Below, one piece after another: positions 24,802 through 49,884 of a stretch of 64,000 nucleotides of DNA. Below the pieces are notes generated by a model. The model saw only the letters and a program-made list of their open reading frames with translations. It ran no database searches and was not told the origin of the DNA. The position numbers and the translations under genes are program-made. Position 1 is the stretch's first letter, and each line of letters opens with the position of its first letter. The DNA is from Rhodanobacteraceae bacterium (GTDB taxonomy: Bacteria; Pseudomonadota; Gammaproteobacteria; Xanthomonadales; Rhodanobacteraceae), in assembly GCA_030167125.1 (NCBI GenBank), contig CP126531.1:372001-436000 (forward strand). The letters run 5' to 3'.

Positions 24802-24922
24802 CTCCGGGTGCGGTGAAGGTGCTCCTGTTACGCACCGTTACACAGCGTTGCGCTGCCGACATCCTGCAGTGACGATGGCATCGCATCTTGGCGGCGAACG
24901 CAGTCACTACCGGAGCGCCACC

Positions 24923-25645
24923 ATGGATACCCCTTTTGTACCGTCCACGATCGAAACGTCGAACCCGCAGCCGAATGCGATCGAACAGCCGCTCGACTTG
25001 GACATCGAGGAACTGCAGCGGCATATGGTCGTGACGCGAAGAAAGGTGAGGGCGGGCCAGTACCTGTACCGGAACGGACAACCGTTCCACGCGTTGTATC
25101 TGGTCCATGCGGGTTTCCTGAAGACCTGCGAGTTGTCGGAGGATGGCCGCGAACAGGTGACCGGCTTCCGTATGCGCGGCGACCTGCTTGGTGTCGAGTC
25201 TATCGGCCTTGCGGTCCACACCTGCGACGCGGTCGCGCTGGAAGACTCGCAGATCTGGGAGTTGCCTTACCCGCCGGTGCTAACGGCGTGCCTGCACGTT
25301 CCCGAACTGCAGGTGCGATTGTCTTCCGCACTGGCCGAGGAGATACGGCGCGACCGATCCTGGATGCTGACCATCGGCACGCTGCCTGCCGAGCAACGCG
25401 TGGCGGCGTTCCTGCTCGACATCGCGCAGCGTCTTGCGCGTCTGGGGTTCAGCGCAAGACACTTCATCTTGCGCATGGGGCGTGCCGACATCGCGAGCTT
25501 CCTTGCGCTGAAGCATGAGACCGTGAGCCGCGCGCTGTCGCACCTCGAGCAGATGGGATACATCTCGGTGCTGCGGCGCGAAGTGCAGTTGCTGGATATC
25601 CCCAGGCTGGGCGCTTGCGTAGGCGTTTCCGGTACGCTTCAGTGA
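24923..25645 (+). CDS. FNR-family transcription regulator lacking the iron-sulfur cysteines
   Basis: A 240-aa Crp/Fnr protein. The cNMP-like sensor fold runs to about residue 125, including an FNR-like stretch EDGREQVTGFRMRGDLLGVESIG. A dimer helix and a winged helix-turn-helix follow, with recognition helix KHETVSRALSHLEQ. E199, S202 and R203 are the residues that read TTGAT half-sites in FNR. All four [4Fe-4S] ligands of FNR are missing: no Cys in the first 68 residues, and Trp112 replaces the C122 equivalent. It is likely to bind the boxes found around it but must sense something other than cluster loss (heme, NO, redox, or a partner). The kinase gene is convergent, 6 bases away. Confidence 0.88.
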   Translation: MDTPFVPSTIETSNPQPNAIEQPLDLDIEELQRHMVVTRRKVRAGQYLYRNGQPFHALYLVHAGFLKTCELSEDGREQVTGFRMRGDLLGVESIGLAVHTCDAVALEDSQIWELPYPPVLTACLHVPELQVRLSSALAEEIRRDRSWMLTIGTLPAEQRVAAFLLDIAQRLARLGFSARHFILRMGRADIASFLALKHETVSRALSHLEQMGYISVLRREVQLLDIPRLGACVGVSGTLQ

Positions 25646-30472: not shown

Positions 30473-30486
30473 TTGATCCGTATCAC
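30473..30486 (+). promoter_or_regulatory. FNR/ANR-type box before the NO reductase gene
   Basis: TTGAT-CCGT-ATCAC, 9 of 10 consensus positions, 58 bases before the ATG at 30544. FNR/DNR-type control of NO reductase genes is well known. Confidence 0.65.
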
Positions 30487-30543: not shown

Positions 30544-32877
30544 ATGAATGCCTTGAAAATGGCCGCGAACGACGCGGTTCCCCAAGATCGTGTCAGCCGC
30601 ACTTTGATCTGGGTGTTGCTGGTGACGACGATCTGTTGTTGGGCCGCGATGATTGCTGCCACGGTGGCCACGTACCGGCAAGCGCCGCCGCTGCCGGAGC
30701 AAATGGTCGATGTCAGTGGTTCGACAGTGATGACCCGCGCCGACATCGTGGCAGGCAAATCGGGCTTTCAGCAGGCCGATTTGATGGACTACGGCAGCTT
30801 GTATGGCATGGGTTCGTACTTCGGTGAGGATTTCACTGCTGAATACCTGGTCCAGCTCGGCAACGAGGTTCGCGACAATCTGGCCTTGGCCCGTTACGGC
30901 AAACGGTTCGCGCAGGTCGAGCCAGCTTTGCAGCCAGGGCTTACCGAGGCGATGCAAAAGGAACTCAAGAGCATCGACCTCAGCCAGACGACAGTACAAC
31001 TGCCGGATGCGGTCGCGAAGGCTATCGGCACGTTGCGTGTGCAGATCGCTCGATTGCTGTTGAGTGACAATTTCGAACACGGCTATACCCGTGCCTACAG
31101 CCTCAACGACAAGAGCGCGACCGAGACGGCGAATTTCCTGCTGTACTCGTCGCTGACCACGATCGCGCGGCGTCCCGGTCAAGACGTGTCATGGACCGCC
31201 AATTGGCCACCAGAGCCTCTGGTCGGGAACCAACCGACGCCAGCTACCTTCCAGTGGACTTGGGCCTCGTTGACGCTGGTGTTCTTCGGAATCGGCGCAG
31301 TGTTGCTGATCTTCCGGATGTGGATCGAACCCAAGGTCGCGAACGAGACTTTCGAGCCCACGCTGGAGAAATTCTTTACGCCAACGCCCAGCCAGCGCGC
31401 ACTGTGGAAGTATCTGTTGGTGGTGGCGCTGGTGCTGCTGCTGCAGATTGCCGCCGGCACGGTGCTCGCGCATTACTACACGGAGCGTACCGGTTTCTAT
31501 GGATTCATCATCGACAGCTTCCTGCCATTTGCATTCGTGCGCGCCGTGCATTTACAGGCGCCGATTGTCTGGATCGGGATGAGCTGGATCGGTGCAGGTC
31601 TGTTCCTCGCACCATTGATTGGCAAGCGCGAGCCAAAAGGACAGCGCTTTCTCGTGAACCTGATCTTTTGGGTGCTGGTGGTCATCGTCGCCGGCGCGCT
31701 GATCGGCGATTACCTTGGCGTAATGGGTATCGTCAAGGATCACTGGTTCTGGTTGGGCAACCAGGGCTTGTCGTACCTGGAACTGGGTCGCCTGTGGCAG
31801 ATCCTGTTTTTTGTCGGCTTGCTGGTGTGGAGCCTGGTACTCCTGCGTGCGTTTCTGCCTACGCTCACCTCATTGGTCAAGGAAGGCCGCTCATTCCTGA
31901 GTCTGTTCCGGATCGAGCACCTGCTTTGGTACAGCACGCTGGGCGTGGCGGTGATCTATGCGTTCGGGATGATCCCGCTGGGCGCCCCCAATCCGTCCTT
32001 TACGATCACGGATTTCTGGCGCTGGTGGGTGGTCCACCTGTGGGTAGAGTGGGCCTTCGAACTGTTCACCGCCGCGGTGACCGGCTACTTCCTGATGGCG
32101 TTGGGCCTGGTGTCGCGCCAACTGGTGGAGCGCGCCGTGCTGTTCGAGTGGATCCTGATCCTGGTCAGCGGCATCCTCGGTACCGGCCACCACATGTATT
32201 GGGCCGGCGAAAGCGGCAGCCTGTGGATCGGCGTGGGCAGCATGTTCTCGTTCCTCGAGGTGTTGCCGCTGTTCCTGCTGGTGATGGAAGCGATCGATCA
32301 GCGGCGCCACATCGCCGAACGGGTGGCCTTCCCGTATCGGCTGGCATACCTCTACATCCTGGGCTCGGCCTTCTGGAACTTCGTGGGCGCCGGCGTGTTC
32401 GGCGGCGGCACGCTCAATGCACCGCTCGCGAACTACTACGAGCACGGCACCTTCCTGACGCTCAACCATGCGCACACAGCGATGTTCGGAGCATTCGGCC
32501 TGCTCGCACTCGGCTTGATCTACATGGTGCTTCGCTACTTGAACGGCGAACGGGCGTGGAGCGATCGCGCGGGCGTGTGGGCCTTCTGGCTCTACAACAC
32601 CGGACTGGTGATGTGGATCGTGATGAACTTCTTCCCGATCGGCTGGCCACAACTCGAAGCGGTTTACACCCACGGGTATGCCCACGCGCGCAGCCTGCAG
32701 TTCTATGAAACCACCAATTTCTGGCAGTGGATGCGCATGCCTGGCGACATCGTGTTCGCACTGGGCGCACTGCTGATGGCTTGGGATTTCGTGGTCAAGC
32801 TGCGAGCGCAAAGCAACAGGGAGCCGGCGTCCAACTCGAAAGGTCCGACACCGTTTCAGCAACCCGTTCCCGATTGA
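30544..32877 (+). CDS. norZ: Quinol-dependent nitric oxide reductase (qNOR)
   Basis: Single-subunit inner-membrane enzyme reducing 2 NO to N2O with quinol electrons. The 777-aa length, an N-terminal helix followed by a periplasmic cytochrome-c-like domain without a CxxCH heme site, and about twelve further hydrophobic segments define qNOR rather than cNOR. Conserved parts include HLQAPIVWIGMSWIGAG, WWVVHLWVEWAFELF, GTGHHMYWAG and LNHAHTAMFGAFG, which carry the heme and non-heme iron ligands. It detoxifies NO or, with a partner pathway, supports partial denitrification; no nitrite reductase is in this window. Confidence 0.95.
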   Translation: MNALKMAANDAVPQDRVSRTLIWVLLVTTICCWAAMIAATVATYRQAPPLPEQMVDVSGSTVMTRADIVAGKSGFQQADLMDYGSLYGMGSYFGEDFTAEYLVQLGNEVRDNLALARYGKRFAQVEPALQPGLTEAMQKELKSIDLSQTTVQLPDAVAKAIGTLRVQIARLLLSDNFEHGYTRAYSLNDKSATETANFLLYSSLTTIARRPGQDVSWTANWPPEPLVGNQPTPATFQWTWASLTLVFFGIGAVLLIFRMWIEPKVANETFEPTLEKFFTPTPSQRALWKYLLVVALVLLLQIAAGTVLAHYYTERTGFYGFIIDSFLPFAFVRAVHLQAPIVWIGMSWIGAGLFLAPLIGKREPKGQRFLVNLIFWVLVVIVAGALIGDYLGVMGIVKDHWFWLGNQGLSYLELGRLWQILFFVGLLVWSLVLLRAFLPTLTSLVKEGRSFLSLFRIEHLLWYSTLGVAVIYAFGMIPLGAPNPSFTITDFWRWWVVHLWVEWAFELFTAAVTGYFLMALGLVSRQLVERAVLFEWILILVSGILGTGHHMYWAGESGSLWIGVGSMFSFLEVLPLFLLVMEAIDQRRHIAERVAFPYRLAYLYILGSAFWNFVGAGVFGGGTLNAPLANYYEHGTFLTLNHAHTAMFGAFGLLALGLIYMVLRYLNGERAWSDRAGVWAFWLYNTGLVMWIVMNFFPIGWPQLEAVYTHGYAHARSLQFYETTNFWQWMRMPGDIVFALGALLMAWDFVVKLRAQSNREPASNSKGPTPFQQPVPD

Positions 32878-32878
32878 A

Positions 32879-32892
32879 TTGATCCGAATCAA
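32879..32892 (+). promoter_or_regulatory. Perfect FNR/ANR box before the first BON gene
   Basis: TTGAT-CCGA-ATCAA, 10 of 10, immediately after the qNOR stop codon and 52 bases before the ATG at 32944. Confidence 0.75.
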
Positions 32893-32943: not shown

Positions 32944-33597
32944 ATGAAATCCGATCGGGAACTTCAGCGAGACGTGGTGGCGGAATTGAATTGGGATCCG
33001 TCCATTGATGCGAGCCGGATTGAAGTGGAGGCGTGCGCAGGCATCGTGACCTTGGCGGGCCTTGTGAACAGCTATGCGCAAAAGCGCGGTGCGCAAATGG
33101 CCGCATGGCGTGTCGACGGGGTGAAGGGCGTGATCGCGGACTTGGAAGTCGTGCTGCCAGATATCGACAGACGGTCGGACGAGGACATTGCCAAGGCTGC
33201 ACACAATGTATTGGCATGGAACACGTCGATACCGCCGCGCAAAGTGAAGGCGTCAGTCAAGCATGGCTGGGTCGTGCTCTCCGGCAACGTGGAATGGGAG
33301 TACCAGAGCCGTGCCGCCGAGTCCGCCATGCGCAACCTGACGGGCATCAAGGGCCTCACCAACCTGATCGAGATAAGACCGGCCATGGAACCGCGCGATG
33401 TCACGCGCCAGATCGAGGCGGCGTTGCGCAGACGATCCCATCGCCGTGCCAGGAACGTCTCGGTGGTGGTGAATGGCGGCACCGTGACACTTTGCGGGCA
33501 ACTGGATTCCCCGAGCGAGCGCAACGCGACGCGCCTGGTCGCATGGCGCGCACCGGGCGTTCGCAACGTGGTGGACGAGACGACGATCACGGCTTGA
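32944..33597 (+). CDS. Triple BON-domain protein
   Basis: A 217-aa protein with three BON repeats (about residues 3-70, 75-145 and 150-215), each with the pattern V-x-L-x-G-x-V followed by A-x-x-x-x-G-V-x-x-V. No signal peptide is visible, so it appears cytosolic, unlike OsmY-type BON proteins. It is a paralogue of the protein at 38302-38952. Starts an apparent operon with a Usp gene, the cydA-like gene and cydX under a perfect FNR box. Confidence 0.85.
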   Translation: MKSDRELQRDVVAELNWDPSIDASRIEVEACAGIVTLAGLVNSYAQKRGAQMAAWRVDGVKGVIADLEVVLPDIDRRSDEDIAKAAHNVLAWNTSIPPRKVKASVKHGWVVLSGNVEWEYQSRAAESAMRNLTGIKGLTNLIEIRPAMEPRDVTRQIEAALRRRSHRRARNVSVVVNGGTVTLCGQLDSPSERNATRLVAWRAPGVRNVVDETTITA

Positions 33598-33661: not shown

Positions 33662-34099
33662 ATGTTCACGCACATCCTCATTCCAATCGATGACGATCCG
33701 GGTTCGCATCGCGCGATCGAGCAGGGCATCGCTCTGGCAAAGAAGCTCGATGCCCGCGTGACGGGTTTCCATGCGATGACGGAGTTCAACCACGCGGGCA
33801 TCGTCGAGGAATTGCTTGAACCGCCGCCCGCGGAGTTGCAGGTGCTTGCGCAAGCCCACGCGGACAAGCTGTTCACGCCATTGCAGCGCGAAGCCGAACT
33901 CGCGGGTGTCCAGTACGACACCATCGCGAAGCGGGCCGAACGACCCTGCGAGGCGATTGTCGCGGCGGCGCAGAGGGCGCATTGCGATCTGATCGTGATG
34001 GCTTCGCATGGTCGGCACGGCATCGCGAAGCTGGTGCTGGGCAGCCAGACGCAACAAGTCCTGAACCACGCCGGCATTCCGGTGCTGGTGGTGCGTTGA
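33662..34099 (+). CDS. Universal stress protein, single domain
   Basis: A 145-aa UspA-fold protein. The ATP-binding signature is intact: MASHGRHG, nine-residue spacing, then LGSQTQQVL, and an N-terminal ILIPIDDDPGSHRAI. Probably an ATP-binding Usp. It lies 64 bases after the BON gene and 43 before the cydA-like gene. Confidence 0.9.
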   Translation: MFTHILIPIDDDPGSHRAIEQGIALAKKLDARVTGFHAMTEFNHAGIVEELLEPPPAELQVLAQAHADKLFTPLQREAELAGVQYDTIAKRAERPCEAIVAAAQRAHCDLIVMASHGRHGIAKLVLGSQTQQVLNHAGIPVLVVR

Positions 34100-34142: not shown

Positions 34143-35690
34143 GTGACCAGTCCCCTCGGGTTCCATGTTTCGGCACTGTGGCCCCAGCTCGTCGCGGTGT
34201 ACTGCGTGACCTTGCTGCCGCTCGCGGCGGGATTGCCGCCGATCATCGCGATCATCGAAAGTGTTTACGTGATGACCGGAAGGGAAATCTGGCGGCAGAC
34301 CGCGCGCTTCTGGGGCAAGTTGTTTGGCGTGGTCCTGCTGATGTGGGCCGTGGGCTCGATCCTGCTCACGCTTTTGTATGTCGCGGATCCCGGCCGGTTC
34401 ACCAAACACATCCATGGAATGCCCGGCCCGTTGCTGGTGCTGTTCTTCATGCCTTTCGTACTTGCCTTCGGCCTGCTGCTGTGGAACCGTTTCCGCAACT
34501 GGTGGAATCCGCACCGGGTGCGGCACCTGATCGTTACATGGTTGTGGACGCCGTTGTTCGGATTCGCAGTGTTGAAGGTCGCGATCGGATTCGGCTTGCT
34601 GGACAACCCGGCCGGCGTGGACCTCGACGCCGGCAGCATGCAAGCCTGGATCTACGACGTGCCGGCGGTGCTGCTGAATGTCGCCGCCCAGTCCAGGTTC
34701 GTGCACATGATCGCGGCGTGCTATCTGACTGCCGCAAGCCTTGTCCTCTCGATTTCGGCCTGGTACATGTTGCGCGCCCGCAACATGCGGATCGCACGCC
34801 GTTCGCTGACCGTGGCCGCAAGTTTCGGTTTGGCAGCAGCACTCTCGATGGCGGTTCTTGGCGACCATCGCGGCTATGCCGAATCCTCCGGTCAGCAGAT
34901 GCGGATCGCCGCCATTGCCGCCGAGTGGCATACCCACGCAGCACCCGCGCCTTTCACGATTTTCGGGATTCCGGACAGCCACCAGCGCGTCACCAACGCA
35001 AGGGTGGACGTGCCGTGGGCTTTGGGGCTGGGTGCCACCCATTCATGGAGGAAGGCGGTTCCGGGCCTGGACGATCTGGAGGCGGTGAACCTGGCGCGCA
35101 TCCATGACGGTGTCGCGGCATTCACGGTGATGGATACGCCGTGGGCCGATCCGGGTGGCGTGGACAATCTTGTCTTCGACCTCGAAGACACACCCAACCT
35201 CGGCTACGGGTTGCTGTTGCTGCGGTACACCTCCAATCCAGCCCGTGCGAGTGACGCAATGATGGCCGCTGCAGCGAGGGACACGATTCCGAACGTGCCG
35301 TTGCTGTTCTGGAGTTTCCGCGGCATGGCGTTGCTTGGGCTGTATGCGATCGTCCTGTTTGGCTGCGCGTTCTGGCTCGCGTCGAATCGAAAACTGGACC
35401 GGCGCTGGTTCCTGCTCGCGGCAGCATGGAGCTTGCCCGTACCGTGGGTCGCGGGTGCGCTGGGCTGGATCGTGAGTGAAGCCGGCCGCGGTCCGTGGGT
35501 CATCGACGGTGTGTTGCCCGTGACGGAAATTCACGCCAGCCGCCCCGACATGATCGTCGGCGCCATCGCGTGCACCGCCATGGCCGTTCTGTTTGTTGCA
35601 GGTGCTGCATTGCTGGTTCGCCTTGTCCGCATCGGTCCCGAAGGGCTGAAGTTCTGGCCGGGCGATCCGGGCAAGGCCGGGAAATACTGA
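34143..35690 (+). CDS. Divergent cytochrome bd subunit I (CydA-like), active-site residues replaced
   Basis: A 515-aa polytopic membrane protein clearly homologous to CydA along its whole length (for example QSRFVHMIAA, SISAWYMLR, PAPFTIFGIPD, GYGLLLLRYT, GWIVSEAGRGPW). Measured against E. coli CydA by eye, heme b558 ligands H186 and M393 are kept (H188, M395) and so is E445 (E446). The heme d ligand H19 falls on Cys21, E99 and E107 are replaced by Gly/Met in the motif GPLLVLFFMPFVL, and the quinol residues K252/E257 become R254/A259. This is unlikely to be an ordinary quinol oxidase. A cydX-like gene follows, but no cydB is present. GTG start with GGGAG eight bases upstream. Confidence 0.85.
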   Translation: MTSPLGFHVSALWPQLVAVYCVTLLPLAAGLPPIIAIIESVYVMTGREIWRQTARFWGKLFGVVLLMWAVGSILLTLLYVADPGRFTKHIHGMPGPLLVLFFMPFVLAFGLLLWNRFRNWWNPHRVRHLIVTWLWTPLFGFAVLKVAIGFGLLDNPAGVDLDAGSMQAWIYDVPAVLLNVAAQSRFVHMIAACYLTAASLVLSISAWYMLRARNMRIARRSLTVAASFGLAAALSMAVLGDHRGYAESSGQQMRIAAIAAEWHTHAAPAPFTIFGIPDSHQRVTNARVDVPWALGLGATHSWRKAVPGLDDLEAVNLARIHDGVAAFTVMDTPWADPGGVDNLVFDLEDTPNLGYGLLLLRYTSNPARASDAMMAAAARDTIPNVPLLFWSFRGMALLGLYAIVLFGCAFWLASNRKLDRRWFLLAAAWSLPVPWVAGALGWIVSEAGRGPWVIDGVLPVTEIHASRPDMIVGAIACTAMAVLFVAGAALLVRLVRIGPEGLKFWPGDPGKAGKY

Positions 35691-35715
35691 ATACGAACGA
35701 ATCGGGAGATCGCAT

Positions 35716-35841
35716 ATGTGGTACTTCACATGGCTGCTTGGCGTCGGCCTCGCGTGCAGTTTCAGCATCCTCAATGCGATGTGGCTCGAGGTGCATGCGG
35801 ATGACGAACGCGACTGGGCAGCGGTCGTCAATGACGATTGA
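35716..35841 (+). CDS. cydX: CydX/CbdX-like small cytochrome bd subunit
   Basis: A 41-aa protein that begins MWYFTWLLGVGLACSFSI and continues LNAMWLE, the hallmark of the single-helix CydX/YbgT subunit that stabilises the heme region of cytochrome bd. GGGAG lies nine bases upstream of the ATG. It directly follows the cydA-like gene (25 bases), in the position cydB-cydX would hold, but cydB is missing. Acidic tail after the helix. Confidence 0.85.
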   Translation: MWYFTWLLGVGLACSFSILNAMWLEVHADDERDWAAVVNDD

Positions 35842-35932: not shown

Positions 35933-36334
35933 TTGAATCCATGGCTGTTAGCGAAAGCCGTTGCCGTGTGGGGCGTGATCCTGGTGCTTGCGTTCGCAAA
36001 CGCCGGGTTGCGAGAAGTCATATTGATCCCGCGATTCGGCAACGTGCGGAGCCTGACCGCCAGCGGGGTAATCCTCTCGTTGCTGGTGCTGTTCGTGGCG
36101 TACGTGAGCGTCCCGTGGCTCGGCGCGATGCGAACCCGGGAGCTGCTCGCCGTCGGCTTGGGCTGGTTTGCGCTGACACTCGCGTTCGATTTGTTGCTGG
36201 GCATGGCGCAAGGTGAGCCACTGCGTCAGCAGTTGGATGCCTATCTGTTCAAGCGCGGCAATCTGTGGCCAGTGGTTTTGCTGGTTACTGCCTGTGCGCC
36301 CTACCTCGCGGCGAAGCTGCGCGGCTGGATCTGA
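35933..36334 (+). CDS. Four-helix membrane protein, function unknown
   Basis: A 133-aa membrane protein with four hydrophobic segments (about residues 5-25, 42-62, 72-92 and 113-130). The frame opens at a TTG at 35903, but the TTG at 35933 has GAGG eight bases upstream and a better N-terminus. It lies 91 bases after cydX. It is not CydB: far too short and without its motifs. A role as an alternative partner of the CydA-like protein is only a guess. Confidence 0.6.
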   Translation: MNPWLLAKAVAVWGVILVLAFANAGLREVILIPRFGNVRSLTASGVILSLLVLFVAYVSVPWLGAMRTRELLAVGLGWFALTLAFDLLLGMAQGEPLRQQLDAYLFKRGNLWPVVLLVTACAPYLAAKLRGWI

Positions 36335-36373: not shown

Positions 36374-36387
36374 TTGATCGTCATCAA
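36374..36387 (+). promoter_or_regulatory. Perfect FNR/ANR box before the sulfide:quinone oxidoreductase gene
   Basis: TTGAT-CGTC-ATCAA, 10 of 10, 53 bases before the ATG at 36441. Confidence 0.75.
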
Positions 36388-36440: not shown

Positions 36441-37727
36441 ATGGCAAAGATAGTGGTATTGGGCGCGGGTTTGGGCGGCATGAGCGCAGCCTATGAAATC
36501 AGGTCGCGTGTAGGCACGAACCATTCGATCACGATGATCGGTGACGGACCACTGTTCAACTTCACGCCATCCAACCCCTGGGTGGCGGTGGGTTGGCGCA
36601 GCGCCGAGGACATCCGGGTGGATGTGACCCGTCCTCTCGCAAATCACGACATCCGCTTCATACCGGTCGCAGCCGAAAAGGTGGTTCCCGAAGCCAAGCG
36701 CATCGATCTTGTCGACGGCAACAGCGTCGATTACGACTACCTGGTGATCACGACCGGGCCGCGTCCGGCGTTCGAGAAGGTACCGGGCAGCGGCCCGGAA
36801 GGTTTCACCCAGTCCATATGCACCGGCCCGCACGCCCAAAAGGCGTGGCATGCCTACCAGACGTTCCTGACCAACCCGGGCCCCATCGTGGTGGGCGCCA
36901 TGCAGGGCGCGAGCTGCTTTGGTCCTGCCTACGAGTTCGCGATGATCCTCGACACCGACCTGCGCCGCCGAAAGCTGCGCGACCGCGTGCCGATGACCTT
37001 CATCACGTGCGAGCCGTACATCGGGCACATGGGTCTGGGCGGCATCGGCGATTCGGAAGGCCTATTGGAATCGGAATTGCGTCGGCGTCACATCAAGTGG
37101 ATCGCGAACAGTCGCGTGAAGAAGGTTGAAGCGGACAAGGTGCATCTGGAAGAACTGGATCACGATGGCAGGGTTGCGCATGTGCACGAGCTGCCGTTCG
37201 CATTCTCGATGCTGATCCCGGGCTTCGCCGGCGTCGAGGCCGTGCAGGGTGTCGACGGGTTGGTGAATCCCAGCGGTTTCATCTTCATCGACGAGCACCA
37301 GCGCAACACGAAATACCCGGAAATTTTCGCGGCCGGCGTGTGCGTGGCGATTCCGCCGGTGGAGTCGACCCCGGTACCGACCGGTGTGCCCAAAACCGGG
37401 CTGATGATCGAGTCGATGGTCGAAGCGATCGCGGAAAACCTGCGCGCCGAGCTGGCCGGCAAACCTGCCAGGGCGACGGCAACCTGGAATGCGCTGTGCC
37501 TGGCCGACATGGGTGACAGCGGATTCGCCTTCCTGGCGTTGCCGGAAATCCCACCCGGCAACGTGACGAAAACCATGGCCGGCAAGTGGGTGCATCCAGC
37601 CAAGGTGGCCTACGAAAAGTATTTCCTGCGCAAGATGCGCCAGGGCAAGGCCGATCCAGGCTATGAGAAGCGCATCCTCAAGGCATTCGGCATTGCACGG
37701 TTGAAACCGAAAAAGCACGCGGCATAA
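36441..37727 (+). CDS. sqr: Sulfide:quinone oxidoreductase
   Basis: Membrane-associated FAD enzyme passing electrons from sulfide to quinone. An N-terminal Rossmann motif (VVLGAGLGGMSAAYE) is followed by all three redox cysteines of the A. ferrooxidans-type enzyme: C127 (SICTGPHA), C159 (GASCFGPAYE) and C353 (ALCLADMGDSG). Also AAGVCVAIPPVE and the C-terminal GKWVHPAKVAYEKYFLRKM. Length is 428 aa. GAGG nine bases before the ATG. Control by a perfect FNR box suggests sulfide detoxification or electron input under low oxygen. Confidence 0.9.
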   Translation: MAKIVVLGAGLGGMSAAYEIRSRVGTNHSITMIGDGPLFNFTPSNPWVAVGWRSAEDIRVDVTRPLANHDIRFIPVAAEKVVPEAKRIDLVDGNSVDYDYLVITTGPRPAFEKVPGSGPEGFTQSICTGPHAQKAWHAYQTFLTNPGPIVVGAMQGASCFGPAYEFAMILDTDLRRRKLRDRVPMTFITCEPYIGHMGLGGIGDSEGLLESELRRRHIKWIANSRVKKVEADKVHLEELDHDGRVAHVHELPFAFSMLIPGFAGVEAVQGVDGLVNPSGFIFIDEHQRNTKYPEIFAAGVCVAIPPVESTPVPTGVPKTGLMIESMVEAIAENLRAELAGKPARATATWNALCLADMGDSGFAFLALPEIPPGNVTKTMAGKWVHPAKVAYEKYFLRKMRQGKADPGYEKRILKAFGIARLKPKKHAA

Positions 37728-45216: not shown

Positions 45217-45900
45217 CTACAGACTCGACACGTATTCGGCGAGCGCTTGCATGTCGGCCGCGCCGAGGTTGCGCGCGACGCCCTGCATCACCTTGTCGTT
45301 GCTGGTCCCGACGCGGGTGCCGTCGCGGTAAGCCTTCAATTGTTCCAGCACGTACGGCGCGTTCTGGCCGGCGAGCACCGGAAACGTCGACCACGCCGGT
45401 TGCGGTGCGGTGCTGGTGAAATCGGGGCGAGGCCCCCGGCCGTCGATGCCGTGGCAGCCCTGGCAGGGCGGGATGCCTTGCGCGGCGTCGCCATCATGGA
45501 ACAGGATTGAACCGCGCGATGATTGCTGCGGCGCGTGCTTGCCGGGCAGCGACGCGAAATGCGCGGCAAGGTTGCGCATGTCCTGGTCGGTCAGCGTTTT
45601 CGCGAGCGGTTGCATCACGGCGTTGTCGCGTGCGCCATCCTTGAAAGCACGCAACTGCACGTAGAGGTAGGTTGCCGATTGTCCGGCGAGGTTGGGGAAT
45701 GTCGGCGCAACCGCGATGCCGTTGCTGCCGTGGCAAGCCGCGCAAACGTCAGCTTTGGCCGCGCCCGCCGCCGCGTCGCCGCGGATCGGTGCTTGCTTGC
45801 GCAGGTCATCGAAGCGCGGACTTGCAGCCAGTGCCACGCCGATGGCCATTACCAGCCATGCAATCGAGGCAACGAGTGCGGCGCGTGTCGTGAAGCTCAC
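45217..45900 (-). CDS. Diheme cytochrome c (c4-like)
   Basis: A 227-aa exported cytochrome: signal segment at residues 8-26, heme sites CAACH (53-57) and CQGCH (146-150), each followed by a cytochrome c fold with M-x-x-x-A (VMQPLAKTLTDQD, KVMQGVARNLGAAD). It would carry periplasmic electrons. GTG start with GAGG eight bases upstream. It is the last gene of the sigma-to-cytochrome unit, 10 bases after the porin gene, so it likely serves the decaheme cytochrome. Confidence 0.88.
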   Translation of the reverse strand: MSFTTRAALVASIAWLVMAIGVALAASPRFDDLRKQAPIRGDAAAGAAKADVCAACHGSNGIAVAPTFPNLAGQSATYLYVQLRAFKDGARDNAVMQPLAKTLTDQDMRNLAAHFASLPGKHAPQQSSRGSILFHDGDAAQGIPPCQGCHGIDGRGPRPDFTSTAPQPAWSTFPVLAGQNAPYVLEQLKAYRDGTRVGTSNDKVMQGVARNLGAADMQALAEYVSSL

Positions 45901-45910
45901 GGCGACATCC

Positions 45911-48493
45911 TCACAGTTTCACGTTGAGCATCACGCCGACCAGGTTGGCGCTGTAATGCGGCTGCGGGCCGAGGTCGGTGTAGATCCGGTGGTCGATCAC
46001 CAGGTTGTCCTGCAACCCGAGGTAGTGCCAATCGGCGAAGCTGCCGGTCTCGAACAGGTCGAACACCCGCATCCCGATCATCCGCGATAAGGCAATGTCG
46101 AAGCCGAGCTGCAGGGTGTTGATGTGGTAGTGGTTGTCCGGGAAGGCATCGCCGACGTCGTCGGCGAACTGTTGCTGCGTGATGGGCAGTGCGCCGGGCG
46201 AGGCGAACACGTAGCCGATCCTGCCGAGTGCGTACGTGTAGGTGTAACTCAAGTCCGCGCGCACGCGTCCGAAATCGTGACGGAGCGTGAGGCCGGCGTT
46301 GTAATCGCGCTCGTGGTCGATGCTCTGCCACTGGTTCGCGAGCGGGAACAACGGTCCGCCCAGCGACGGATCATTGCGGCCCGGCCCGCCGGTGACGTCT
46401 TCGTTGTCGGCGACGTTCGAGAAATTCAGGCTCGAATCGTCGCGTCCCAGGTTGGCGCTCATGCTGGTCAGCGGCGAGGGTTGCCAGTCCCACGACAAGT
46501 CGAAACCGCGGTTGCGCGTGGCTTGCCGGCCGATCGCGGCGCCGTAGTCGTCGCGCGTCGCGTACGCGATGGCCGATAGCGTTGCAGTGTCTCCGATCGG
46601 ATAAATCAGCGTCGCGTGCAGCTTGTGTTCGATGCGGTTGCTCAGGTCGTACTTGCGCATCGCGTCGGTGGTGAACGCGACATTGCCGAGCGGCGGCGTC
46701 ACGAAGCCGGGCAAGCTGGTCGAGTAGAACGGCGCGTAGGGATCGTAGTTGTAGGGTCCGCCGTTGCGGTACGCGAATTCGTAGTCGACGCGCAGCGTGC
46801 CCTTGCCGAGCGCGCGGTCCACCCAACCCAGCTTGATGCGTTGTTCGTTGACCAGTTTGCGCTCGCGGTATTTCGGCTGGTCGCGATCGAAGCTCCAGGT
46901 CACGTTGAAAGTGTTGTTTTCGCTGGCGCGCCAGTCGATGCCCGTGTCGAACACGGTGTCGGTGTAGCCGAACGGAATCGCGCGCACTTGGGTCACGTAA
47001 GACGCGTACAGCGGATTGCGCGGATCGAAGATGCCGATCTGGCCGGGGATGATGCTGCCCTGCGATCCGTTCTCGGCGATGTAGCCGTACTGCCCGGTCA
47101 GCGGATTGAAGGCGAGGTAGTTGGTCTTGTTGTCCTCGCGGTACCAGCGCAGGCCCGCGTGCCAGCCGAGTTTCGGGGAAGGGTGCAGCGTGATCTTCGC
47201 GTCGAGCAGGCCGGTGTCGATGCGTGCGTTCGCGGTCTGCTGCGACAGCGCCGCGGTGGTGTTCCAGTTGGCGCAGTTGAAGGTGTAATCCGCCGACGGC
47301 GAAATGAAGATGCCGCCGGTGCCCGTGCAGGTGACGGGCGGCAGCAGCGGATCGTCCTGGCGCATCGTGCCCCACGCCGCGGCCAGCGAGAGTTGGCCGT
47401 TCCACTTCAGGCTGCGCGAAAGCTCCGCGCGCAGGTTGTGGTAGTCGTTGTCGGGCTCCAGCGAAAACTGGCCCTGATGGATGTTGGCGACTTGCGGCAC
47501 GCCGACGACGTTGGTCAGCGCGAACGGGCTCTGGTAATTCAACGTGTCCTTGTGGTTGCGGAAGAACGAACCCGTGTAGTTCAACTGGAATTGCCAAACC
47601 TCGCCGACGTCGCGCAAACCCGCGTTGACGTCGGTGGTGGTGAAGTCGATCGGGCGCACCGTTTCCAGTGCACCGCCGTTGTCCTGGAGGATATAGTTGA
47701 GATACATCGGGCCGCCCCACAAGCGGTCGCCCGTGCGTTGCTCGTTGACGATCGAGACGTAGCCGGTCCAGTCGCGATAGAAGTTGTCTTCGAAGCTGAG
47801 GCCTTCGCGCCTGCGCGTGAGGCCGATCGTTTGCCGCGGGCGCGTGTTCGCGACGGCTGCTACTTCGGTGGGCGTACTGCCGCCGGGCACCAGCGGCGCC
47901 GGCAGTGTCAGGTTGGTAGTGCCAACGCCGTTCCACAACGGGTAGGCGCTGGTGGTGACGTTGTGTGGAATGTCGCGGTAGAAGGCTTCGATCCTATAGA
48001 CGCCGTATTGCCCGGCGCGCAGGCGGTAGTACTGATCGTCACCGCTCAACCGGCTGCCGCGGAATTCGACGTACTGTCCGGTCTTCGGATTGTCGGCATA
48101 CAGCGCGAACAGGCCGAGCGCGATGCCGTCCTTCCAGCCGGCGTACTGGCGGAAGAATTCGGCCCGGGTATCGCCGCCCACGTGCAGGTAACCGAGTTGC
48201 AAAAAGCCCGAGTACACCCAGTCGCTGTTCTTGTACAGCGGTGAACCCTTGTCGTTGCGTTGCGGTGGATACGGATACAGCACGCCGCTGGGCGTGCGCA
48301 TCATGCCGGCGTGCAGCCACGAGAACCCGCGCGGGTCGGGCCACGCAAGCGGCGCCCAGCCGGTGGGATCGAGCGCGTTGCCATACTGGATGTCGCCCAC
48401 GCGCGCGCTGTCGCTGGAATCGGCCCACGCCGGCGCACCCACGAAAGCTGCGGCAATGGCGATGGCCAGCGATGTGACGAACAGTTTGCGCAT
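45911..48493 (-). CDS. MtrB/PioB-family outer membrane beta-barrel
   Basis: An 860-aa outer-membrane porin that sheaths a multiheme cytochrome and lets electrons cross the outer membrane. Signal peptide (cleavage after AWA, about residue 24), then many amphipathic beta strands with Tyr/Trp-rich turns and a terminal strand ending LVGVMLNVKL. Family-like stretches include GLSFEDNFYRDW and DYNAGLTLRHDF. The CxxC near the N-terminus of Shewanella MtrB is absent, and the greater length is closer to PioB. GGGAG before the ATG. The partner decaheme gene is immediately upstream. Confidence 0.85.
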   Translation of the reverse strand: MRKLFVTSLAIAIAAAFVGAPAWADSSDSARVGDIQYGNALDPTGWAPLAWPDPRGFSWLHAGMMRTPSGVLYPYPPQRNDKGSPLYKNSDWVYSGFLQLGYLHVGGDTRAEFFRQYAGWKDGIALGLFALYADNPKTGQYVEFRGSRLSGDDQYYRLRAGQYGVYRIEAFYRDIPHNVTTSAYPLWNGVGTTNLTLPAPLVPGGSTPTEVAAVANTRPRQTIGLTRRREGLSFEDNFYRDWTGYVSIVNEQRTGDRLWGGPMYLNYILQDNGGALETVRPIDFTTTDVNAGLRDVGEVWQFQLNYTGSFFRNHKDTLNYQSPFALTNVVGVPQVANIHQGQFSLEPDNDYHNLRAELSRSLKWNGQLSLAAAWGTMRQDDPLLPPVTCTGTGGIFISPSADYTFNCANWNTTAALSQQTANARIDTGLLDAKITLHPSPKLGWHAGLRWYREDNKTNYLAFNPLTGQYGYIAENGSQGSIIPGQIGIFDPRNPLYASYVTQVRAIPFGYTDTVFDTGIDWRASENNTFNVTWSFDRDQPKYRERKLVNEQRIKLGWVDRALGKGTLRVDYEFAYRNGGPYNYDPYAPFYSTSLPGFVTPPLGNVAFTTDAMRKYDLSNRIEHKLHATLIYPIGDTATLSAIAYATRDDYGAAIGRQATRNRGFDLSWDWQPSPLTSMSANLGRDDSSLNFSNVADNEDVTGGPGRNDPSLGGPLFPLANQWQSIDHERDYNAGLTLRHDFGRVRADLSYTYTYALGRIGYVFASPGALPITQQQFADDVGDAFPDNHYHINTLQLGFDIALSRMIGMRVFDLFETGSFADWHYLGLQDNLVIDHRIYTDLGPQPHYSANLVGVMLNVKL

Positions 48494-48539
48494 GCACTCT
48501 CCCTATCGCCGCCGCATCAGGGAGCCATCGGCTGTTCTG

Positions 48540-48589
48540 CCCCCTTGAGTCAAGGGGGCTGCCAAGCCGCTGCCGTGCAACGGCTTGGC
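48540..48589. repeat. REP-like double hairpin between the cytochrome and porin genes
   Basis: Two adjacent perfect stems: CCCCCTTGA/TCAAGGGGG (48540-48558) and GCCAAGCCG/CGGCTTGGC (48561-48569 and 48581-48589). They sit in the 158-base gap between the decaheme gene and the porin gene on the minus strand, so within the polycistronic leader of the porin. The look is that of a dispersed intergenic repeat. Confidence 0.55.
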
Positions 48590-48651
48590 GGGGGTTGTGG
48601 AAGGATGGTTCTGCATGGTCAAGGAAAGCAGCACCCCATACGTCGAATGGT

Positions 48652-49884
48652 TCATTTATGGAACCGCGAACCCGAGGGATTGTTGGAGCCGTGGATGTTG
48701 GCGTGGCAGGTCAGACAGGCCCGGCCGATCAGCCGCTCGTCCGGCGCCGGACCGGTTGCAAGCCCAGCCGTCGTCAGCACGTCGTTGGGATGTCCCGTCA
48801 TGATGTGGCACTGCTGGCACAGCATCGGCACCGGCAGCGTGAGCAACGCCTCTTGGTTGGAACCGTGCGGGTCGTGGCAGGCCAGGCAGTCCTCGCGCAC
48901 CGGCGCGTGTTCGAACAGGAACGGTCCGCGTTTCTCGGCGTGGCAGACGTAGCAGGTTTCGTTGACCGTGTCGGTCTTGATGAGGTCCGCCGTCAAGGTG
49001 CCGTGCGGATTGTGGCAATCCACGCAGGACATCTCTCCTTCCGGCAGCGGCATGTGCGAGCGGCGGTTGAACTTGTCGCGGATGTCCATGTGGCAGGCGG
49101 CGCAGACCTGGTTGATCGAGTTGTCGGCCAGAACACCTTCGGCCGACAGCTTCGCCATCGGATTGTGGCAATCGGTGCAGCCGAGCTGGTGCTGCTGGTG
49201 CACCGAGCCGATCCAGTCCTGGCGCGCGCCGCCCTTGTGACATGCGAGACACACGCCGGCCTGTACGTCGATCGGTGTTTTGGAGTCACGGGTGAAGGCG
49301 ATGATCAAGCCCGGTCGCGTTGGATCCTTCGCATGTGCGGAACCCGGCCCGTGACAGGCTTCGCACGCCGCCGCGGCGCCCGTTCCGGCCGCGCCGGCGC
49401 GGAACGCCTGCACGTGCAGCGAGTGCGAGGCCCGCACGTTTTCCAGCGCGTGGCAGGCGACGCAGGATTTCGCGCCGATCGCGACCGCATCGGGCGCCAG
49501 CGGATTCTTCGCGATCGGTGCGCCGTCGAAAGGCGCGGCCGCGCTGTCGTCGAGTAAGGCGTGCGCAGACGGATGCGCATTCGCGTCCGCGTCGGTGCGC
49601 ATGTCGGTGCGCGGCAACATCCGCGCGAAATCCTGGGTGGTCAATGCGCTGGCGGGCAACGCGCCCCCGTGCGGATCGCCATCGTTTGGATTCGCCGCGG
49701 CTTGCGGCGTCATCGCCGGCAGCATGCGGCTGAAATCCTGTTCTGTCAGCGTGCCCGGAGTTGTGGCGGGATGGGTCACTTGCGCATCGGCATGCCGGAC
49801 GGTCAAGAGGGCGCCCGCCACGCCAAGCAACATGAGCAACGCCATGGCCGAATGCAGGCGTACCGTTCGATCAGAAGAAGCCAT
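48652..49884 (-). CDS. Decaheme c-type cytochrome (MtrA/PioA/DmsE family)
   Basis: A 410-aa periplasmic cytochrome with exactly ten CxxCH sites, the first at residues 141-145 and the last (CLTCH) near the C-terminus, spaced in two pentaheme-like halves as in MtrA. Ahead of the hemes lies a roughly 100-residue extension absent from MtrA, containing a duplicated motif LTEQDFSRMLP (46-56) and LTTQDFARMLP (81-91). Signal segment at about 14-34. It would sit inside the porin encoded next and pass electrons across the outer membrane. Overlaps folE2 by 14 bases. Confidence 0.92.
   Translation of the reverse strand: MASSDRTVRLHSAMALLMLLGVAGALLTVRHADAQVTHPATTPGTLTEQDFSRMLPAMTPQAAANPNDGDPHGGALPASALTTQDFARMLPRTDMRTDADANAHPSAHALLDDSAAAPFDGAPIAKNPLAPDAVAIGAKSCVACHALENVRASHSLHVQAFRAGAAGTGAAAACEACHGPGSAHAKDPTRPGLIIAFTRDSKTPIDVQAGVCLACHKGGARQDWIGSVHQQHQLGCTDCHNPMAKLSAEGVLADNSINQVCAACHMDIRDKFNRRSHMPLPEGEMSCVDCHNPHGTLTADLIKTDTVNETCYVCHAEKRGPFLFEHAPVREDCLACHDPHGSNQEALLTLPVPMLCQQCHIMTGHPNDVLTTAGLATGPAPDERLIGRACLTCHANIHGSNNPSGSRFHK

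Follow-up and report, generated by a model that had tools for sequence, protein, structure and literature searches.

A CydX-associated variant of cytochrome bd subunit I that lacks CydB and the heme d ligand in a Rhodanobacteraceae genome

What function can a cytochrome bd subunit I serve when its heme d ligand is replaced and no CydB is encoded beside it? The question is raised by a gene in a 64,000-nucleotide stretch (the window) that covers positions 372001-436000 of a complete 3.28-Mb Rhodanobacteraceae genome (one contig, 99.85% complete; G000). A preliminary description made from the letters of the window had proposed a cytochrome bd derivative with different chemistry. The features concerned are given below in window coordinates; residue codons were assigned by alignment with E. 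coli CydA.

30544-32877, + strand: quinol-dependent NO reductase (qNOR; PF00115, PF22085), with an FNR box at -71
32879-32892, no strand: FNR/Dnr-type box TTGATCCGAATCAA at the head of the inferred operon, an exact match that lies 65 bp before the BON gene
32944-33597, + strand: protein with three BON domains (PF04972, E 1.5e-44), whose gene opens the inferred operon
33662-34099, + strand: universal stress protein (USP; PF00582, E 2.8e-30), which immediately precedes the CydA-like gene in each of the six genomes that have this gene
34143-35690, + strand: CydA-like protein without heme d and proton-channel residues, 515 aa, GTG start (PF01654, E 7.2e-77)
34203-34205, + strand: Cys21 codon, at the alignment position of His19, which ligates heme d in E. 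coli CydA
34704-34706, + strand: His188 codon, equivalent to His186, a heme b558 ligand, kept
35325-35327, + strand: Met395 codon, equivalent to Met393, a heme b558 ligand, kept
35478-35480, + strand: Glu446 codon, equivalent to Glu445, the heme b595 ligand, kept (role from PMC8585947 and PMC6853902)
35716-35841, + strand: CydX, 41 aa, of ordinary sequence (MWYFxWLLGxGLA..F.ILNAMW.E; PF08173, E 2.8e-17; TIGR02106, E 6e-17)
35933-36334, + strand: hydrophobic 133-aa membrane protein, TTG start (GTG at 35966 possible), no Pfam or NCBIfam match
36374-36387, no strand: another exact FNR/Dnr-type box, TTGATCGTCATCAA, 67 bp before the next gene
36441-37727, + strand: sulfide:quinone oxidoreductase (SQR; full-length match to PDB 3sz0, a sulfide-quinone reductase, E 1e-154)

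The protein resembles CydA over its full length, as had been described. The PF01654 match spans the whole sequence with a score of 259 bits, and alignment with E. coli CydA (PDB 6rko) scores 325 bits. An AlphaFold model computed from a 74-sequence alignment (pLDDT 79, pTM 0.81) superimposes on E. coli AppC (7ose_A) with TM-scores of 0.86/0.88 over 504 columns, which identifies the CydA fold; model confidence is low at residues 80-120, the TM2-3 loop and TM3. The 41-aa CydX reported directly downstream is also genuine. Its reading frame starts after a gap of 25 bp and scores above the cut-offs of both family profiles, and a CydX gene whose pattern matches the canonical CydX of relatives was found in all six carrier genomes.

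Orthologues were found in 5 of 15 congeneric genomes searched (G004, G006, G010, G014 and G015), with 68-83% identity to the G000 protein; together with G000 these are the carriers. One of them is 'Lysobacterales bacterium 66-474' (L032), and the carriers are a small set of related soil and bioreactor bacteria. Beyond the five orthologues the next-nearest relatives are only 41-45% identical, and the best plasmid matches all stay below 60% identity. Similarity searches and the tree indicate that the nearest relatives are nearly all gamma- and alphaproteobacterial CydA proteins with a long Q-loop. In a maximum-likelihood tree the six orthologues group together behind a very long, fully supported branch, whose length, together with composition bias, makes the attachment point of the group untrustworthy.

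Known structures show heme d ligated by H19, heme b595 by E445, and heme b558 by H186 and M393 (PMC8585947), and E. coli E99 mutants and the E74F mutant lose heme d (PMC6853902). To see which of these residues persist, we compared the six orthologues with 107 other CydA proteins recovered by the same searches, here called canonical (E. coli numbering). H19 (where the row covers the position), E99, E107, S140, K252 and E257 are invariant in the canonical set and E74 nearly so; H186, M393, R391, W441, E445 and R448 are invariant as well. In all six orthologues E74 is replaced by Thr or Ala, E99 by a hydrophobic residue and E107 by Ala. Across the six, S140 became Ala, Val or Glu, K252 became Arg or Gln, and both E257 and R9 became Ala. 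The loss of E99 and E107 noticed in G000 thus holds throughout the group and extends to E74 and S140, and the alignment bears out R254 and A259 of G000 as the counterparts of K252 and E257. H186, M393, R391, Q249, D239, Y243, W441, E445 and R448 are retained in all six, which agrees with the earlier assignment of H188, M395 and E446 as H186, M393 and E445.

The heme d ligand itself is lost in every orthologue. The preliminary description had placed H19 on Cys21; the loss of the histidine stands, but Cys is not an invariant replacement, as position 19 reads C, C, C, G, C and C in the six, with Gly in G004. A Cys21 thiolate as a conserved substitute ligand for heme d is excluded by this glycine. 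The alignment is anchored by A16, Y18, P24, L25 and G28, present in all six orthologues, which share no alternative conserved His in TM1. That the protein is an ordinary CydA misread through an alignment error, with its CydB encoded elsewhere, has practically no likelihood: pairwise, 74-row and larger alignments agree and none restores a His at the heme d position, no TM1 His is conserved, and PF02322 finds nothing.

The CydB family search (PF02322) gave no match across the complete G000 genome and was positive in 10 of 14 control genomes, which rules out a CydB hidden elsewhere in G000 and extends the absence first noted for the operon to the whole genome. The same genome holds a single CydA-family gene (PF01654), so that a second CydA-type chain as in CydAA' or OR-N was not found by this search, and no CydD scored above the curated cut-off. 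CydC exceeded its cut-off in only four genomes of the genus, each time beside canonical cydAB. No CydB was found in carriers G010, G014 and G015; the candidate in G006 was rejected, being only a 21-bit PF02322 match inside an unrelated 446-aa reading frame. G004 is the only carrier with a separate canonical CydAB, so CydB could be borrowed there. This genome also stands alone among the carriers in having Gly at position 19 and in lacking the 133-aa protein. The other respiration genes of G000 are four heme-copper oxidase genes and one qNOR. Because the three defining features that were tested, CydB, His19 and E99/E107, are absent, the protein is a variant of cytochrome bd subunit I and not a cytochrome bd oxidase.

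The replacements are concentrated in one half of the protein. Among columns that are at least 95% conserved in 128 canonical proteins, the six orthologues have lost 50 of the 78 in TM1-4 and 12 of the 77 in TM5-9 (Fisher p 2e-12, lost vs fully kept columns). Identity to the nearest canonical CydA is only 25-34% in TM2-4, a region in which two canonical proteins share 72-92%, while TM5-8 and the Q-loop lie near the canonical range. By these comparisons TM1-4, the heme d pocket on the CydB side, is rewritten and the quinol/b558 half in TM5-9 is kept. The hydrophobicity of TM2 is 1.27-1.80 in the six and at most 1.24 in any canonical protein, and that of TM9 exceeds the canonical mean; both are consistent with loss of the polar channel and of CydB contacts. 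No distant member with the same losses was found among canonical loci from the genome-contig scan, among the loci of 100 relatives, or among the 29 best loci drawn from 369 genomes of the class.

This pattern might be expected if a cytochrome bd operon had been lost and the gene were decaying, given that CydB and CydDC are both missing and that constraint on the O2-site half is weaker than in canonical enzymes. We consider decay very improbable. All six orthologues, from six species, have intact frames of 515 aa (mutual identity 64-85%) with pairwise dN/dS values of 0.16-0.30, CydX is at least as constrained as the CydA-like protein, and the b558 half is fully kept. The intact frames and the dN/dS values exclude a pseudogene. 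Since the five congener orthologues share the same length and these low ratios, the lineage is under purifying selection and not decaying. Within the six, dN/dS is about 0.15 in TM5-8, as in canonical enzymes, and 0.33 in TM2-3, and most canonical pairs show the reverse; these regional ratios are approximate, being Nei-Gojobori estimates on GC-rich genes.

Whether quinol can still bind bears directly on function. K252 and E257 have long been counted as quinol-site residues, and E. coli enzymes mutated there have lower quinol oxidase activity; the CydA-like protein could accordingly be impaired in quinol oxidation. Cryo-EM and mutagenesis published in 2026 identify Y243 and R298 as the quinol site, with K252 and E257 bracing the Q-loop (PMC13189123). 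The long Q-loop and Y243 are kept in all six orthologues; R298 is His in all six, as it is in E. coli AppC and in 8 of the 107 canonical relatives. The quinol site is for these reasons altered but not clearly lost. The preliminary statement that the quinol residues are replaced is not supported in that form: Tyr243 is kept, Arg298 has become His, the half with the Q-loop and b558 evolves as it does in canonical enzymes, and K252 and E257 are not headgroup residues according to the 2026 study (PMC13189123).

The gene lies in a probable operon of the genes for BON, USP, CydA-like protein, CydX and the 133-aa membrane protein. Control by an FNR-type regulator had been suggested for it, and the exact box TTGATCCGAATCAA 65 bp before the first gene agrees with this; weaker boxes precede the BON gene at -64 in G014 and at -68 in G006, and the qNOR box at 30473-30486 has one mismatch. 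With up to two mismatches allowed, the window contains 32 FNR-type boxes against 12.6 expected. Exact or near-exact boxes at 30473, 32879, 36374, 39012 and 43038 are spread across a stress/low-oxygen cluster with USP, BON, DksA-like, qNOR, SQR and HSP20 genes. A Crp/Fnr-family regulator encoded at 24875-25645 has an ETVSR recognition helix and no visible N-terminal Cys cluster, features that would suggest a Dnr-like protein and not an O2-sensing Fnr. Its gene is kept near the operon in G015 and G006, and the protein is a candidate for acting on the FNR-type boxes of the window. On the minus strand, positions 45217-49845 encode an MtrB/PioB-type outer-membrane porin and c-type and multiheme cytochromes with doubled CXXCH motifs, which together look like an extracellular electron transfer cluster.

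The order USP, CydA-like gene, CydX is conserved in all six genomes, and hemN follows CydX in four carriers (G014, G015, G004 and G010). SQR, a probable feeder of the quinone pool, occurs in all six carriers and in 2 of the 10 non-carriers of the genus; four assembled loci have it within a few kb of the CydA-like gene, and the same probably holds in G010, across a contig break. For qNOR the counts are 5 of 6 carriers, G010 being without it, and 4 of 10 non-carriers, and it adjoins the operon in two genomes, G000 and G004. The 133-aa protein is found in five of six carriers and in none of the ten non-carriers. These counts are all confounded by relatedness inside the genus. In G006 (locus L115) azurin follows the CydA-CydX pair, with nosZ-, nosD-, nosF- and nosY-like genes further on, in place of hemN and SQR. 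No electron-acceptor candidate conserved beside the CydA-like gene is common to all six genomes.

What do these observations say about the function of the protein? From sequence comparison, the heme d, proton-path and CydB parts are lost, and the b558 ligands, Glu445 and CydX are kept. Because the O2-reducing heme pocket and the partner subunit are gone and the quinol half remains, CydA-CydX probably has a job other than breathing oxygen. Our preferred reading, in which our confidence is evenly balanced, is that the pair forms a quinol-linked cytochrome b (b558, perhaps also b595), the electron-input half of cytochrome bd, which does not reduce O2.

With regard to the hemes bound, quinol oxidation, the acceptor and the oligomeric state, we infer the following scheme. 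Quinol, derived in part from the neighbouring SQR, would bind beneath the retained long Q-loop and reduce heme b558 at H188/M395, from where electrons may move to heme b595 at E446 near the periplasmic face. With heme d, the proton channel and CydB gone, four-electron reduction of O2 to water with cytoplasmic proton uptake would not be possible. The one- or two-heme cytochrome b would instead pass electrons to, or be poised by, a small-molecule or periplasmic acceptor, and the complex would act under low-oxygen, FNR/Dnr-type control. That E445, W441 and R448 are kept speaks for b595, whereas loss of R9 and the rewriting of TM1-3 call for caution: the b595 site adjoins the rewritten helices and the heme may not be bound. 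The complex is probably still kept together by CydX and may be a dimer bridged by it, like that of E. coli bd-I (PMC13189123).

We can propose only tentatively the more specific version, a repurposed, CydB-independent CydA-CydX complex under FNR/Dnr control that oxidizes quinol via b558/b595 and reduces an acceptor other than O2, such as NO, a reactive sulfur species or a periplasmic protein. Such a complex would so far be restricted to one genus-level group. The earlier idea of a bd derivative with different chemistry is upheld as far as the missing CydB and heme d site are concerned; its suggestion of NO, sulfide or signalling chemistry was not supported, the linkage to SQR and qNOR being circumstantial.

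The neighbourhood also bears on a catalytic alternative, a bb-type terminal reductase in which either b595, open and five-coordinate at E446, or a heme b that occupies the old d pocket would let quinol and periplasmic protons reduce O2 or NO, making the complex an FNR/Dnr-controlled NO or O2 scavenger. E445, W441 and R448 are kept in all six orthologues, the operon has qNOR as its neighbour in G000 and G004, and azurin with the nos-like cluster in G006, FNR-type boxes occur at the operon, and cytochrome bd hemes are able to bind NO. We regard this as unlikely, however, since the proton path through E107, E99 and E74 and the heme d ligand are absent in all six, TM2-3 have turned hydrophobic, and the association with qNOR is weak (5/6 vs 4/10, with none in carrier G010).

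A heme b protein that reports the quinone state or binds NO, H2S or O2 without turnover would likewise explain why catalysis is lost while ligand-binding parts stay. The USP, BON, DksA-like and SQR genes nearby and the two-component and Crp/Fnr regulator genes upstream would suit such a redox or gas sensor. The protein has no output domain, however, no kinase or regulator is fused to it or invariantly adjacent, and a nine-helix heme protein with CydX would be an odd sensor, which makes this role quite unlikely.

The rewritten CydB side could alternatively serve a new two-subunit assembly, either a dimer through the former CydB face or a complex with the 133-aa protein, and in both cases CydB would be replaced as it is by CydA' in CydAA'. 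CydB-side columns are replaced in all six orthologues, partly by invariant residues (L76, Y77, H89, P92 and P103, E. coli numbering), and the distribution of the 133-aa protein (5/6 vs 0/10) points the same way. Yet the 133-aa protein is missing from the complete G004 genome and has relatives in a few distant genomes, and G000 has no second CydA gene; we judge this assembly improbable. As an obligatory substitute for CydB the 133-aa protein is excluded by its absence from G004 and by its rarity, with relatives in distant genomes; it is found beside SQR rather than strictly beside CydX.

Among described systems, the CydA-like protein resembles the qOR1 enzymes bd-I and bd-II (E. coli CydABX and AppCBX) in CydA fold, length, long Q-loop and sequence (35-44% identity). 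It also shares H186/M393, R391, Y243, W441, E445, R448 and the canonical CydX immediately downstream; it differs in lacking CydB, H19, E74/E99/E107 and CydDC. Cyanide-insensitive CIO and bb'-type quinol oxidases are bd-type enzymes without a heme d spectrum that retain CydB (CioB) and the active-site ligands, in contrast to the CydA-like system, from which both CydB (CioB) and the heme d ligand are missing. The CydAA' and OR-N proteins of archaea and Nitrospirota are CydB-less CydA-type proteins that pair two CydA-type chains (PMC12342949). They share with the present protein a CydA-type chain without CydB, and in part they do without the quinol or heme sites. Here, by contrast, there is one chain with a long Q-loop, CydX and a gamma/alphaproteobacterial qOR1 affinity; OR-N is compared by its description only. 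The E. coli E99 and E74 mutants lose heme d through changes at the same positions (PMC6853902), but they are laboratory single mutants, whereas here several positions are replaced together and maintained under selection. Our literature search, outside which the 2021 superfamily classification lay, turned up no earlier description of a qOR1 CydA that has a long Q-loop and CydX and lacks CydB and heme d.

If the more specific version, which we propose only tentatively, is true, this would be the first known qOR1 long-Q-loop CydA that works without CydB and heme d. It amounts to a natural dissection of cytochrome bd, in which the quinol/b558 half and CydX are kept and the half with heme d, the proton channel and CydB contacts is rewritten. 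If b558 is bound and quinol is oxidized, the pair would offer a minimal system for examining why CydB is needed, whether b595 is functional in the absence of heme d, and what CydX does by itself. Metagenome surveys that count cydA genes as oxygen reductases will miscount.
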